From: Brevibacterium sp. JSBI002
GTDB taxonomy: Bacteria; Actinomycetota; Actinomycetes; Actinomycetales; Brevibacteriaceae
Reading direction: 5' to 3'
DNA: 64,000 bases
Assembly: GCF_026013965.1 (NCBI RefSeq)
Contig: NZ_CP110341.1
Location: 1,922,001 to 1,986,000 of the forward strand
The stretch's first letter is position 1, and the number at the start of each line of letters is the position of its first letter. The position numbers and the translations under genes were made by a program. The notes under the pieces are model-generated. The model was not told where the DNA came from. It saw only the letters and a program-made list of their open reading frames with translations, and searched no databases. Shown in pieces: positions 6,837-53,186 of the stretch.

Positions 6837-7895
6837 TCAGGCCTCTTCGGATTCGTTCGAGCTGACGTCCTTGAAGGAGATGCCGTCCTTCTTCATCTTC
6901 ACGAGTGAGGCGATGGTGGCCACCACCATGGCGAGGACGATGACGGTCAGGGACAGCCACGTCGGCACCTCGGGGATCGAATGACCCCACGAGAGGAACT
7001 CCCAACCACTCGAATGCAGAGCGTGGATGATGAGCTTGACGCCGATGAAGCCGAGGATCGCGGCGATTCCGTAGTGGAGGTAGACGAGCTTGTCGACGAG
7101 TCCTCCGAGCAGGAAGTACAGCTGACGCAGACCCATGAGGGCGAACACGTTCGCGGTGAACACGAGGAACGCGTTCTGAGTGACGCCGAAGATCGCGGGA
7201 ATCGAGTCGAGAGCGAACATCACGTCGGTCGAGCCGATGGCGATGAACACGATGAACATCGGGGTCCAGTACTTCTTGTTGTCGTCGAGGGTCACCCTCA
7301 GCTTGTTGCCGTGGTATTCGTCGACGACGTTGATGCGCTTGCGCAGGAACCGGATGAGGCCGTTCTCGCCGTCCCCTTCGTCTTCGGAGCTGAAGGCCTG
7401 CCGGTAGGCGACGATGAGGAGGAAGATGCCGAAGATGAAGAAGACTTCGACGAAGGCGCTGATGATCGCCGCACCCGCGAGGATGAAGATGCCGCGGAAG
7501 ACGATGGCGATGATGATGCCGACCATGAGCACTTCCTGCTGGTACTTCCGCGGTACCGAGAAGCTGCCCATGATGATGATGAAGACGAACAGGTTGTCGA
7601 TGCTCAAGGAGTACTCGAGCAGCCAACCGGTGAGGAACTCGCTGCCGTGCTGGGCATCGCCGATGGCGAAGAGCGCGCCGGCGAAGACCAGCGCCAGGGC
7701 GACGTAGAAGGCGACCCAGATGCTCGCTTCCCGCATCGACGGAGTATGTGGTCGCTTGACGACCAGCAGGAGGTCGAAGACGAGGATCGCAACGACGATG
7801 ATTCCCGAGGTGATCATGAACCAGACGGGGATCGGAGATTCGCTCGCAGCAGCTGCGTTGCCGCCGGCCGCGAGCGTGGAGGACAGGATATCCAT
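6837..7895 (-). CDS. TerC family integral membrane protein (likely Mn2+ exporter)
   Basis: A 352-residue polytopic membrane protein. Hallmarks of TerC are the acidic membrane motifs DNLFVFIIIMG and ALDSIPAIFG, with VGIIIAIVFRGIFIL between them. About eight or nine hydrophobic segments are seen. Family members such as Alx, YkoY and MeeY are linked to manganese efflux and metalation of exported enzymes. ATG 7895 has an AAAGG site 5 nt upstream; the longer reading to 8036 would run through the leader. The leader holds a candidate yybP-ykoY riboswitch, which supports a role in Mn2+ homeostasis. The tellurite-resistance label is historical. Confidence 0.9.
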   Translation of the reverse strand: MDILSSTLAAGGNAAAASESPIPVWFMITSGIIVVAILVFDLLLVVKRPHTPSMREASIWVAFYVALALVFAGALFAIGDAQHGSEFLTGWLLEYSLSIDNLFVFIIIMGSFSVPRKYQQEVLMVGIIIAIVFRGIFILAGAAIISAFVEVFFIFGIFLLIVAYRQAFSSEDEGDGENGLIRFLRKRINVVDEYHGNKLRVTLDDNKKYWTPMFIVFIAIGSTDVMFALDSIPAIFGVTQNAFLVFTANVFALMGLRQLYFLLGGLVDKLVYLHYGIAAILGFIGVKLIIHALHSSGWEFLSWGHSIPEVPTWLSLTVIVLAMVVATIASLVKMKKDGISFKDVSSNESEEA

Positions 7896-7931
7896 GGATG
7901 CCTTTCGTGGTGAACAGGATGTATCCAGGTC

Positions 7932-8029
7932 GAAAGTCTCTCCCACGCGGTGAATCTGCGTGCGCTCCGCGTCCGGACCCTTTGTAGGGTCGTGGTGACG
8001 ACCGCGGATGGACGGGATACTCCCTTTCG
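7932..8029 (-). promoter_or_regulatory. Candidate yybP-ykoY (Mn2+) riboswitch upstream of terC
   Basis: The 98-nt stretch begins with CGAAAGGGAGTA and ends with GAGACTTTCG. Its ends pair as P1 (CGAAAG at 8029-8024 with CUUUCG at 7937-7932). This matches the known yybP-ykoY layout: AAAGGGGAGUA at the 5' end, AAGACCUUU at the 3' end, about 100 nt, upstream of TerC or Mn exporters. Inside are CGTCC/GGACG enclosing a GGTCGT/ACGACC hairpin, then an ACGCGG/CCGCGT hairpin. The copy CGAAAGG at 7907-7901 is the terC ribosome binding site and could compete for the 3' P1 strand. The assignment rests on motif resemblance; no covariance model was run. Confidence 0.6.
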
Positions 8030-8039
8030 CCAGCACACC

Positions 8040-8045
8040 AGTATA
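8040..8045 (-). promoter_or_regulatory. terC -10 element
   Basis: TATACT on the minus strand. The predicted start near 8033 falls just before the 5' strand of riboswitch P1, so the aptamer would lie at the very 5' end of the transcript. No good -35 is present. Confidence 0.5.
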
Positions 8046-8081
8046 AACACGCGAGCATCACTCCCGCGTCACCGGTGCGGA

Positions 8082-10214
8082 TCAGGCGTGCCCGGCCTCC
8101 TTCATCTGGCGCAGCTCCTGCTTGAGGTCGGAGAGCTCATCGCGGAGTCGTGCGGCGAGCTCGAACTGCAGCTCCGCGGCGGCCGAATGCATCTGCGAGG
8201 TCAGCGATTCGATGAGTTCTGTGAGGTCAGCCGCCGGCGGGCGCAGCGAACCGGGCTTGCCGGCGGCTTCCCTCTGTTCGTCGGTCAGGGTCGAGTTGTA
8301 GCCGCGCTTGCCCTTGCCGTAGTCGAATTCGGTGAGCAGCTCTCGAGTGTCCTCGTCCTCACGCTGCAGTCGTTCGGTGATGTCTGCGATCCGCTTGACC
8401 AGCGGCGCCGGATCGATTCCGTGCTCTTCGTTGTAGGCGATCTGGATGGCGCGCCTGCGGTCGGTCTCGTCGATGGCGGTGCGCATCGAATCCGTGATCG
8501 TATCGGCGTACATGTGCACCTGGCCGTTGAGGTTACGTGCGGCACGACCGATCGTCTGGATGAGCGATGTCGACGACCGGAGGAAGCCTTCCTTGTCGGC
8601 ATCGAGGATCGCCACGAGCGAGACCTCGGGAAGGTCGAGGCCCTCACGCAGGAGGTTGATGCCGACCAGCACATCGAATTCACCCGCGCGCAGCTCTGTG
8701 AGCAGCTCCACACGTCGCAGAGTGTCGACGTCGGAGTGGAGGTACTGGACGCGGATATCGTGTTCGAGCAGATAGTCGGTGAGATCTTCGGCCATCTTCT
8801 TCGTCAGAGTCGTCACGAGCACACGCTCATTCGCGTCGACACGGGTCTTGATCTCGTCGAGCAGGTCGTCGATCTGCCCCTTCGTCGGCTTGACCTTGAT
8901 CTCGGGGTCGACGAGTCCGGTGGGGCGGATGATCTGTTGGACGTATCCGTTGGCGTTGCCGAGTTCGAAGTTGCCGGGTGTGGCCGACAGGTACACGCTC
9001 TGTCCCACGCGCTCCCGGAACTCGTCGAACTTCAGCGGCCGGTTGTCCATGGCACTGGGCAGACGGAAACCGTGCTCGACGAGGGTGCGCTTGCGAGACA
9101 TATCGCCTTCGTACATTCCGCCGATCTGCGGGACCGTGACATGGGATTCGTCGATGACGAGCAGGAAGTCCTCGGGGAAGTAGTCGAGCAGGCAGTTCGG
9201 TGCCGAACCGGGATCGCGGCCGTCGATGTGCCGGGAGTAGTTCTCGATGCCGGAGGTGAAGCCCATCGACTCCATCATCTCGAGGTCGTAGGTCGTGCGC
9301 ATCTTCAGCCGTTGGGCTTCCAGCAGCTTGTTCTGCGATTCGAACTCGCTCAGCCGCTTCTGCAGCTCGTCCTCGATGCCGCTGATCGCGGTGGCCATCC
9401 GGTTCTCACCGGCGACGTAGTGGCTGGCCGGGAACACGTGGATGGTGTCCTCGTCGCGGACGATCTCGCCCGTCAGCGGGTGGAGGGTCTGCAGCGATTC
9501 GATCTCGTCGCCGAAGAATTCGATCCGCAGCGCGAGCTCCTCGTACTGCGGGATGATCTCGACGGTGTCTCCTCGCACGCGGAAGGTCCCGCGGGTGAAA
9601 GCCATATCATTGCGGGCGTACTGCATCGACACGAAGCGTTTGAGCAGTTCGTCCCGATCGCATTCGTCGCCCTTGTGAAGGGTGACCATCCGGTCGACGT
9701 ACTCCTCAGGAGTGCCGAGACCGTAGATGCATGACACCGTCGAGACCACGACGACGTCGCGTCTGGTGAGCAGCGAGTTCGTGGCCGAGTGCCGGAGACG
9801 TTCGACTTCGTCGTTGATCGAGGAGTCCTTCTCGATGAACGTGTCCGTCTGCGGCACATAGGCTTCCGGCTGGTAGTAGTCGTAGTAGGAGACGAAGTAC
9901 TCGACCGCGTTGTTGGGCAGAAGCTGTCGGAACTCGTTCGCCAGCTGCGCGGCGAGAGTTTTGTTCGGCGCCATGATCAGGGTCGGTCTCTGCACCTGCT
10001 CGATGAGCCATGCCGTCGTCGCAGACTTGCCTGTGCCGGTGGCACCGAGGAGGACGATGTCCCGCTCTCCTGCATCGAGCCGGTCGGAGATCTCTCGGAT
10101 CGCCGTCGGTTGGTCGCCGGAGGGAGAGTACTCGGAGACGACCTCGAAGGGCGCCACTTCACGGGTGACGTCGGGGCGGTGGCCGATCGCTGGCAGGGGG
10201 CGTTCTGAGCTCAT
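8082..10214 (-). CDS. uvrB: Excinuclease ABC subunit B
   Basis: UvrB is the damage-verifying helicase of nucleotide excision repair. The 710 residues show Walker A GATGTGKS (57-64) and the beta-hairpin with [16 protein letters not shown] (about 111-126). They also show the DESH motif VIDESHVT, motif [11 protein letters not shown], and a C-terminal UVR coiled coil ([12 protein letters not shown]) that binds UvrC. The first ATG at 10214 has no Shine-Dalgarno site, but TAAGGT lies exactly 6 nt upstream, suggesting a leaderless mRNA. uvrA and uvrC lie about 4 kb further along the same strand but are separated from uvrB by a plus-strand gene and terminator, so they are not in one operon. Confidence 0.97.
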
Positions 10215-15053: not shown

Positions 15054-15893
15054 ATGAGCGAAGGAACTGACGGAGCCGAGGTCATCAGCGGTGGCTATCT
15101 CCCCATCGACGAAGAGGCTTCAGTCCGGGCCAATCGCAGCTATTGGGACAACTCTGCCGAGGAGTATCTGGCCGAACACGGCACGTTCCTCGGCGCTTCG
15201 GATTTCATCTGGTGTCCGGAGGGAATTCACGAATCCGATGTCCGCCTCCTCGGCGACGTCGACCGGAAGCAGGTGCTCGAGGTCGGCTGCGGTGCCGGTC
15301 AGTGCTCTCGGTGGCTGGCCGAGCAGGGCGCGATCACCACAGGTGTCGACGTCTCCGCCGGAATGCTCGAGCAGGCCTCGCGTCTGCAGCGCGAACATCC
15401 CCTGAGCACCGAGGCGACTCCCCCGACGTTCCTCCTCGCCGATGCCCGACAGCTGCCGTTCGCGTCGAACAGCTTCGACGGCGCGTTCTCCTCCTATGGG
15501 GCCCTGCCCTTCGTCAAGGACGCCGAAGTCGTCTTCGCCGAGGTGGCCAGGGTGCTGCGCAGCGGCGGGCAGTGGGTCTTCTCGACGACGCACCCGATGC
15601 GGTGGATGTTCCCCGACGTCCCCGGTGAGGCCGGGCTGACCGTCGAGTATTCGTATTTCGATCGCACTCCGTACGTCGAGCTGTCCTCGGACGGTCAGCC
15701 GGTCTACGCCGAGCATCACCGGACGATGAGCGACTGGGTCAGCCTCCTCGTCGAGGCCGGCTTCACGATCGATTCGGTGACCGAACCCGAATGGCCCGAG
15801 GAGAATCGGACCGCTTGGGGCGGCTGGTCGCCGCTGCGCGGGGCGCTCATGCCCGGCACCGTGATCTTCTCCACCACTCTGAACAAGGACTGA
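15054..15893 (+). CDS. Class I SAM-dependent methyltransferase
   Basis: A 279-residue Rossmann-fold methyltransferase. SAM motif I is VLEVGCGAGQCSRWL near residue 75, an acidic residue ends strand 2 (GVDVSAGML), motif II is LLADARQLPF, and SSYGALPFV follows (UbiE/Methyltransf_11 type). The C-terminal region has two tryptophan-rich stretches (HPMRWMFPDV and AWGGWSP). The substrate cannot be told. GGAGG sits 7 nt before ATG 15054. The gene is divergent from rpsA and convergent with polA. Confidence 0.85.
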   Translation: MSEGTDGAEVISGGYLPIDEEASVRANRSYWDNSAEEYLAEHGTFLGASDFIWCPEGIHESDVRLLGDVDRKQVLEVGCGAGQCSRWLAEQGAITTGVDVSAGMLEQASRLQREHPLSTEATPPTFLLADARQLPFASNSFDGAFSSYGALPFVKDAEVVFAEVARVLRSGGQWVFSTTHPMRWMFPDVPGEAGLTVEYSYFDRTPYVELSSDGQPVYAEHHRTMSDWVSLLVEAGFTIDSVTEPEWPEENRTAWGGWSPLRGALMPGTVIFSTTLNKD

Positions 15894-52219: not shown

Positions 52220-52302
52220 AGACAAAATCCCTGCCGAGAGGCGATATGAGCAGAAATTTGTGGTGTGGCGAGCCGGAATCCGCCGTCGACGGAGCACCGA
52301 AT

Positions 52303-52338
52303 CCGGTGTTCGGACCGCCCCCGCGATCCGAACACCGG
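52303..52338 (-). terminator. Pyrimidine operon terminator
   Basis: A perfect 12-bp stem (52303-52314 with 52327-52338), 12-nt C-rich loop, 3 nt after the pyrF stop. Confidence 0.8.
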
Positions 52339-52341
52339 TGT

Positions 52342-53186
52342 TCAGTCGGTGATCGTCAGCGCACGATTGAGAGCGGCGGCGGTTTCGGCGAGACCGTCGG
52401 GTCCAGCGCCGAGCACCGCCCGGGAGGCGGTGGCGAGCACCTGTCCCGATTTCAGCGCCCGGTCGCCGAAGACGGCACGCAGCTCGGTCAGGCCCGCGCC
52501 CTGTGCGCCGACGCCCGGGGCGAGGATCGGTCCCCCGCAGTCACCGGGATCGAATCCCAGATCGCGCGCGGCGGTGCCGATGGTCGCGCCGACGACGAGT
52601 CCGAAAGGACCGAGCTCGTCGGATGACCCCACCGCCCGAGCATTGCGCTGCCGCACTCGGGACACGATCGATCCGGCCACCGATTCGCGGTCTTTCTCGG
52701 CATGCTGGACCTCTGCCCCTTCCGGGTTCGAGGTCAGTGCCAGGACGAACACGCCCTTTCCGTGAGCGGCAGCGAGTTCGAAGGCGGGCTCCAGGGCACC
52801 GAATCCGAGGTAGGGCGAGACCGTGATCGAGTCCGCGGCCAGCGCCGAGGCGGGGTCGAGGTAGGCCTTCGCGTAGGCACCCATGGTCGACCCGATGTCA
52901 CCGCGTTTGATGTCGAGGACGGTGAGCAGTCCGGCGTCCCGGGCCGCGGCCAGCGTCTCTTCGAGAGCAGCGATTCCGGCGGAGCCGAACTGTTCGAAGA
53001 ACGCGGACTGCGGTTTGACGGCGGCCACCGAGCCTTTGAGCTCGGAGACCGTGCGGAGGGCGAACTCCCGTACGCCTGCGGCGCTGGCAGGCAGCCCCCA
53101 GGAGGCGAGGAGATGCTCGTGCGGGTCGATGCCCACACACAGCGGTCCGTGCTCGTCCATGGCCGCTGCCAGTCGGGTGCCGAACA

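Follow-up and report, generated by a model that had tools for sequence, protein, structure and literature searches.

A predicted translational Mn2+ riboswitch ahead of terC in Brevibacterium sp. JSBI002, in which one strand could pair with either the aptamer or the Shine-Dalgarno site

The leader of the terC gene in Brevibacterium sp. JSBI002 is very likely a translational ON riboswitch for Mn2+. Comparison of related leaders establishes a predicted yybP-ykoY-type aptamer, the invariant adenine equivalent to the residue that binds Mn2+ in known structures, the P1.1 helix, and a match between the P1.1 3' strand and the Shine-Dalgarno site that is maintained lineage by lineage. These comparisons lend good support to a model in which P1.1 and the Shine-Dalgarno site would compete for the same strand. 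Mn2+ as the probable ligand and the direction of the response, with Mn2+ presumably turning expression ON, are taken from family members elsewhere.

The terC leader and its aptamer

We analyzed a stretch of 64,000 nucleotides (the window), in which terC is encoded on the minus strand (6837..7895, ATG at 7895) as a 352-aa TerC-family protein (PF03741, E 3.7e-48) that is 99% identical in B. sediminis, B. permense and B. iodinum. Its leader spans 8045-7895 on the same strand and follows a gene ending at 8082, which we take from its translation to be uvrB. In the direction of transcription, TATACT (8045-8040) is followed by CGAAAGGGAGUAUCCC, which begins at 8029. A structured, GC-rich region leads to GGGAGAGACUUUCG, which ends at 7931, and a spacer of 23 nt then separates this from CGAAAGG (7907-7901) and the AUG. 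The two CGAAAGG copies (8029-8023 and 7907-7901) and the TATACT box lie where the first-pass annotation had placed them, and it also had the letters of the intervening CUUUCG right, although this element occupies 7936-7931 rather than 7937-7932. The TATACT resembles the -10 box of a terC promoter (8040..8045, minus strand) and keeps its spacing to the L1 letters GGGAG in relatives: a TANNNT ending 9-22 nt before GGGAG was present in 87 of 104 leaders, compared with 11.3 expected from shuffles. These 104 are the 106 available rows minus E. coli alx and one row with too little upstream DNA. Transcription would thus start a few bases 5' of the aptamer.

The aptamer itself is predicted at 7930..8033 (minus strand) by R1, a covariance model that we built from 13 Brevibacterium leaders aligned with helices P1.1, P1.2, P3.1, P3.2 and P4. 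R1 scores the window at 118.9 bits (E 5.2e-27), with the window being one of its training rows. Four loci (L050, L051, L055, L069) were kept out of training because MAFFT alignments misplaced their P3.2 side, and R1 afterwards matched all four. R1 contains no E. coli sequence and matches the E. coli alx leader (37.3 bits, E 9.8e-7), which is described as belonging to the Mn2+-regulated yybP-ykoY riboswitches (PMC9603457); it did not match the E. coli mntP leader (L073). Together with the covariation and the invariant adenine described below, these matches bear out the earlier proposal that the leader holds a yybP-ykoY-type Mn2+ aptamer.

Individual elements of the aptamer could be assigned on the minus strand from an alignment of 98 rows. 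The P1.1 5' strand CGAAAG (8024..8029) faces the 3' strand CUUUCG (7931..7936) in a helix that is 97.1% paired, with double-sided changes at 5/6 pairs. L1 adjoins this helix with the motif GGGAGUA ... AGAC, which is present in 97-98 of the 98 rows. On the 5' side of L1 (GGGAGUA, 8018..8024), the first G, which also closes P1.1, occurs in 98/98 rows and the six letters after it in 97/98, the remaining row having a gap; on the 3' side (GAGA, 7937..7940), AGA occurs in 98/98 rows and the leading G in 91. The inner helices are P1.2 (UCCC, 8014..8017, with GGGA, 7941..7944), P3.1 (UCCGCG, 8003..8008, with CGCGGA, 7966..7971), P3.2 (ACCC, 7987..7990, with GGGU, 7977..7980) and P4 (ACGC, 7958..7961, with GCGU, 7945..7948), their 3' strands being placed by covariation. 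Changes on both sides were found at all pairs of P1.2 (4/4), P3.1 (6/6), P3.2 (4/4) and P4 (4/4), with 87.8% of cells paired in P4. L3 comprises CGUCACCACG on its 5' side (7991..8000), which includes A7996, the equivalent of the Mn2+-binding A41/A48 of known aptamers, and CCGG on its 3' side (7973..7976), whose letters are kept in 91, 98, 97 and 98 of 98 rows and recur in alx. With the register set from published L3 letters, the position equivalent to A7996 is A in 98/98 rows.

Over all helices, 94.5% of pair cells are standard and double-sided changes occur at 23/24 pairs. Covariation scores 0.732, compared with 0.210 for shuffles and no more than 0.097 after sliding the partner strand; the alignment was made by R1, is fitted to it and so leans towards it. 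Helices with such varied letters are unlikely to arise from model fit alone. The window aptamer lacks the P2 hairpin, for which there is no room because only 5 nt separate P1.2 from P3.1. Since alx also appears by eye to be without P2, we do not take this hairpin as defining.

The identity of the ligand was approached through known aptamers. For the L. lactis and X. oryzae aptamers, the published L3 letters are UCA41AUUC and ACA48UACU, respectively, and A41/A48 is reported to bind Mn2+ through N7 in crystals (PMC6754395). According to the same source, Mn2+ stabilizes P1.1 of the X. oryzae aptamer, the A48U substitution abolishes this stabilization, and the stabilized P1.1 is modeled to block invasion by a competing strand. 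The window aptamer resembles both in L1, in an L3 with the invariable adenine and in P1.1 as the putative switch helix (PMC6754395), and differs from their four-way junction in having no room for P2. Homology to the published Mn2+ aptamers makes Mn2+ the probable ligand; the downstream gene, terC (PF03741), is itself tied to Mn2+ homeostasis. The likeness extends to alx, whose target is likewise of the TerC family and whose L3 reads CGUCAUUACG where the window has CGUCACCACG, or CGUCAUUACGAU..AUCCGG against UCGUCACCACGACCC..GGGUCCGG when both sides are compared. However, 80 nt lie between the alx aptamer and its start codon, and there the P1.1 3' strand has its partner in a hairpin (CCUUGCC/GGCGAGG, by eye) instead of in the Shine-Dalgarno site itself.

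Occurrence in Actinomycetes and detection by RF00080

Within the genus, a simple pattern recovered the aptamer core from 34 leaders (L022-L055), and R1 found the aptamer in 36 of 37 genomes; the same 36 have a terC match and the 37th has none. R1 matches were further present in 121/248 genomes of the order (E <= 0.1) and 108/296 genomes of the class (E <= 0.01). Among named relatives, 67/80 loci matched, the 13 misses including four loci from Rathayibacter, one from Clavibacter and four from Aurantimicrobium, and five order-level terC loci (L060, L061, L064, L066, L068) gave no R1 match. We attribute to chance two other R1 matches in the window, one at 52283-52400 (+) with 18.4 bits and E 0.048, the other at 15725-15833 (+) with 14.9 bits and E 0.35. 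One Kocuria locus (L212) has R1 matches at 588-715 and 2140-2269, on either side of a single terC match, and perhaps contains two Mn2+-controlled genes in tandem.

A match to the Rfam model RF00080 above threshold had been set beforehand as a test of the aptamer, and on this point the leader did not conform: RF00080 had no match in the window or in the whole genome, and 7860-8080 gave none at the gathering score or with the limit relaxed to E <= 10. The only Rfam 'evalue' matches of the leader, Guanidine-III (12 bits) and an lncRNA (8 bits), are at chance level. With Infernal's stricter filters, RF00080 passed its cut-off in 0/296 genomes of the class, and weaker matches (E <= 0.1) appeared in 21/296, several of which resembled real aptamers. 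R1 matched all nine of the 21 weak loci to which it was applied (L001-L008, L010). Across 18 loci searched with Rfam at E <= 1, of which 14 were terC loci from the genus or order and four were weak-match loci, RF00080 was reached in three of the latter (L001, L003, L006), each time below cut-off. Because the current model passes its cut-off in none of the 296 Actinomycete genomes, we consider it insensitive in this class and the test too strict, and membership in the RF00080 family therefore rests on other criteria.

Mn2+ riboswitches ahead of terC are already known, including one in an Actinobacterium, Corynebacterium glutamicum. Rfam scores of 43.7-49.9 were listed in 2013 for three C. glutamicum leaders, among them that of cg2157 (terC) at 49.1 bits, which was also observed by RNA-seq (PMC3890552). 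As described there, cg2157 resembles the window locus in being an actinobacterial terC whose transcription start was mapped to the aptamer; it differs in that the passages on this leader do not describe an expression platform (PMC3890552). In our searches, the C. glutamicum genome gave an RF00080 match at E <= 10 and none at E <= 0.1 with the stricter filters, and the present RF00080 model may be less sensitive for Actinomycetes than older Rfam versions.

Pairing between the P1.1 3' strand and the Shine-Dalgarno site

The P1.1 3' strand CUUUCG can pair with 8029-8024 in the aptamer (ON) or with 7907-7902 (OFF), where CGAAAGG (7901..7907, minus strand) contains the Shine-Dalgarno sequence GAAAGG 5 nt before the ATG. 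In a fold constrained to the OFF state, the model extends this pairing by an inner helix of UGGAUA (7922..7927) with UGUUCA (7911..7916). The 7-mer CGAAAGG is not rare, with 4 occurrences in the window against 7.0 expected; it is the setting of the copies that exceeds chance, not the 7-mer itself.

The earlier note had expected both CGAAAG copies to persist in relatives. Exact copies do not persist throughout, but the pairing is kept and co-varies, and because it is the pairing and not the 7-mer that is conserved, the demand for identical copies was too strict. Among 35 genus leaders (a 36th, L057, falls outside the pattern), CGAAAGG occurs literally in both places in 14. The Shine-Dalgarno sequence is GAAAGG in 34/35 and GAAAGA in one, and the P1.1 5' strand is CGAAAG in 22/35 and UGAAGG, CGAAGG, GGAAGG or CGGAGG in the other 13. 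Leaders without the double CGAAAGG thus have UGAAAGG or AGAAAGG (once GAAAGA) at the Shine-Dalgarno site or a different P1.1 5' strand, and CUUUC stands opposite GAAAG in 35/35. Further away, the three segments (P1.1 5' strand, P1.1 3' strand, Shine-Dalgarno site) change together, from CGAAAG/CUUUCG/CGAAAGG in the window to CGGAGG/CCUCCGGUAC/GUACCGGAGG, CGAGG/CCUUCGGUAC/GUACCGAAGGAG and, in a further lineage, CAAGG/CCUUGUG/CACAAGG.

We quantified this relationship as the duplex energy of each P1.1 3' strand with its own Shine-Dalgarno region versus the Shine-Dalgarno regions of other families. For TerC leaders of the order (86 of 89 rows, alx left out), the mean was -10.99 with the own region and -7.79 when swapped, and 0/1000 swaps were as low. 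With one leader per genus (n = 44), the values were -12.82 and -9.24, 33/44 beat the mean of the others, and again 0/1000 swaps were as low. The class set consists of 145 rows, a chosen part made up of 60 order-list regions and 40 class-list regions, both picked for spread over genera, and 45 earlier loci; L001 was added to it by hand because it missed the E limit. By downstream gene, labeled with phmmer, 115 rows are TerC, 19 are GDT1/UPF0016 and 11 are undetermined, and a script with a preference for Shine-Dalgarno-like sequence chose the start codons. After 4/115 TerC rows were dropped (no start, or a start beyond 110 nt), the 111 remaining were reduced to one per genus. In the resulting 65 genera of 29 families, the own duplex averaged -13.38 kcal/mol versus -9.64 kcal/mol swapped, with 0/1000 swaps as low; 50/65 genera beat the mean of the others and 15/65 do not. 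The duplex reaches -9 or lower in 49/65 genera and is weaker than -7 in 9/65, three of them in family f2. Taken together, these comparisons support the either/or pairing of CUUUCG that was originally proposed, in that the pairing of strand and Shine-Dalgarno site co-varies across lineages.

Leaders that drive GDT1/UPF0016 genes served as a control, with 1/19 rows dropped and 18 reduced to 15 genera. Their strand pairs with the Shine-Dalgarno region at -8.15 versus -8.51 when swapped, and 683/1000 swaps were as low. The partner of the strand instead lies 49-77 nt upstream of the start in 14/15 genera (20 nt in L271), so that any effect on the Shine-Dalgarno site would have to pass through a second hairpin. 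Unlike the terC aptamers with their CGUCA-type L3, GDT1 loci (L123, L133, L145, L267, L273, L283, L289 and others) show a CGACA-type L3 and a relay layout, with an anti-P1.1 hairpin and, in some and as judged by eye, a second hairpin that contains the Shine-Dalgarno site. Of three GDT1-labeled proteins, two were confirmed as GDT1 (PF01169), and the third (L267), taken in a wrong frame, matched no family.

Two further observations concern the sequences around the switch. In part of family f2 (L112, L132, L136, L144, L157, L163), P1.1 consists of CGUAGG with CUUACG or CUUGCG and the Shine-Dalgarno site is still close to GAAAG, which produces a mismatch in the OFF pairing; these loci may have a weaker switch or one that operates in another way. 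In other f2 rows (L135, L146, L150) the strand matches the Shine-Dalgarno site well. Many order-level leaders also carry a C-rich tract (ACCCUCC and similar) just 5' of GAAAGG. We considered whether this tract pairs with the P1.1 5' strand and rejected it: the own pairing lay below shuffled in only 4/14 families (f1, f2, f56 and f58; in f2 by 1.5 kcal/mol) and higher in the other 10.

Single-sequence folding with Vienna finds neither the aptamer nor the OFF state. The aptamer, computed with no tertiary contacts, is at -48.2 kcal/mol and the constrained OFF state at -50.5 kcal/mol, which are close in energy, and the best fold is a third, unrelated one at -52.3. The folding energy of the leader is not unusual (z -1.17). 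In the same model, the ligand-free leader leaves the first four Shine-Dalgarno letters largely unpaired, and even enforcing the aptamer does not open the last two G's (unpaired 0.03 and 0.04). The computed accessibility thus indicates no freeing of the Shine-Dalgarno site and speaks rather against the switch. Because the strand:Shine-Dalgarno duplex of the window is short and modest (-7.0), the third fold is lowest and the last Shine-Dalgarno G's stay paired, the computed energies neither prove nor exclude the switch model.

Proposed mechanism, alternatives and significance

In the mechanism that we propose, Mn2+ would bind between L1 and L3, at A7996, and cause the two legs to dock. The docked legs would stabilize P1.1 (8029-8024 with 7936-7931) and hold CUUUCG in the aptamer, which would leave the Shine-Dalgarno sequence GAAAGG free and allow TerC to be made. 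Without Mn2+, P1.1 would open and CUUUCG could pair with CGAAAG at 7907-7902, closing the ribosome binding site. The 16S rRNA tail, with its anti-Shine-Dalgarno sequence, contains both CUUUC and CCUCC, and the switch strand would therefore act as an internal anti-Shine-Dalgarno that imitates this tail. Regulation through ribosome binding site access is already described in general terms (PMC9334652), as is control of translation initiation for mntP (PMC9603457). What differs from the published competing strand is that the alternative partner of the P1.1 3' strand would be the Shine-Dalgarno site itself. A limited literature search, whose scope lay outside the founding yybP-ykoY papers, returned no such direct strand exchange, no Brevibacterium Mn2+ riboswitch and no pairing of L3 type with gene.

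The aptamer could also be real and act on transcription, by intrinsic or Rho-dependent termination, with the Shine-Dalgarno match as a by-product of an anti-P1.1 hairpin. There is precedent in the X. oryzae member, which differs from our proposal in being described as a transcriptional switch that works by antitermination (PMC6754395), and a resemblance to the anti-Shine-Dalgarno is to be expected of every P1.1 3' strand that contains CCUCC or CUUUC. We nevertheless regard this as improbable. No U-run follows the alternative hairpin, whose end lies 5 nt upstream of the ATG; terC leaders have a median of 33 nt from aptamer to start, compared with 78 nt in GDT1 leaders; and terC leaders match their Shine-Dalgarno regions in a lineage-specific way, which GDT1 leaders do not. 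Slightly less probable still is that a relative of the Mn2+ aptamer senses another signal, such as a different divalent metal or alkaline pH together with Mn2+. RF00080 misses the leader, the RF00080 consensus has CGUCAACAUACU where L3 here reads CGUCACCACG, and Mn2+ binding by E. coli mntP is reported to be 17- to 22-fold tighter at alkaline pH (PMC9603457), all of which would fit a changed specificity; yet the L3 of the window has the length of that of L. lactis and the sequence pattern of alx, the binding adenine is unchanged in 98 rows, and the downstream gene is TerC, of a family that the literature links to Mn2+. That the leader is unstructured and carries two short repeats by chance is scarcely credible, since the missing Rfam match, the z of -1.17 and the commonness of the 7-mer, which would suit coincidence, are contradicted by the covariation, the invariant core letters, the recurrence in 36 genus genomes and the alx match. 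A translational Mn2+ switch remains the reading that we favor.

A broader arrangement can be put forward tentatively, as one that we hold possible but would not bet on: the Actinomycete Mn2+ riboswitch may comprise two coupled modules. The terC module would join an alx-type L3 (CGUCA) to a P1.1 3' strand that aptamer and Shine-Dalgarno site exchange directly, and the module of the exporter GDT1/UPF0016 would join an X. oryzae-type L3 (ACAUACU; CGACA in Actinomycetes) to a relay hairpin. L3 type agrees with the gene by alignment column in 84/84 TerC rows (alx included) and 8/8 GDT1 rows, and by pattern in 131/134 labeled rows. The three pattern exceptions (L090, L118, L272) have the expected type by eye, and L090 and L118 also by column. 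Both aptamer types, at least one of each, occur in eight of the sampled genomes (G045, G048, G049, G189, G196, G235, G237, G489). If this arrangement holds, such genomes would have two set points for reading Mn2+, serving metalation (TerC) and export (GDT1).

These results add a large set of predicted Actinomycete Mn2+ switches, mostly missed by RF00080, and indicate that in GC-rich Actinomycetes a missing Rfam match is not to be taken as absence. They also point to a simple expression platform, in which the regulator strand would imitate the anti-Shine-Dalgarno of the ribosome.
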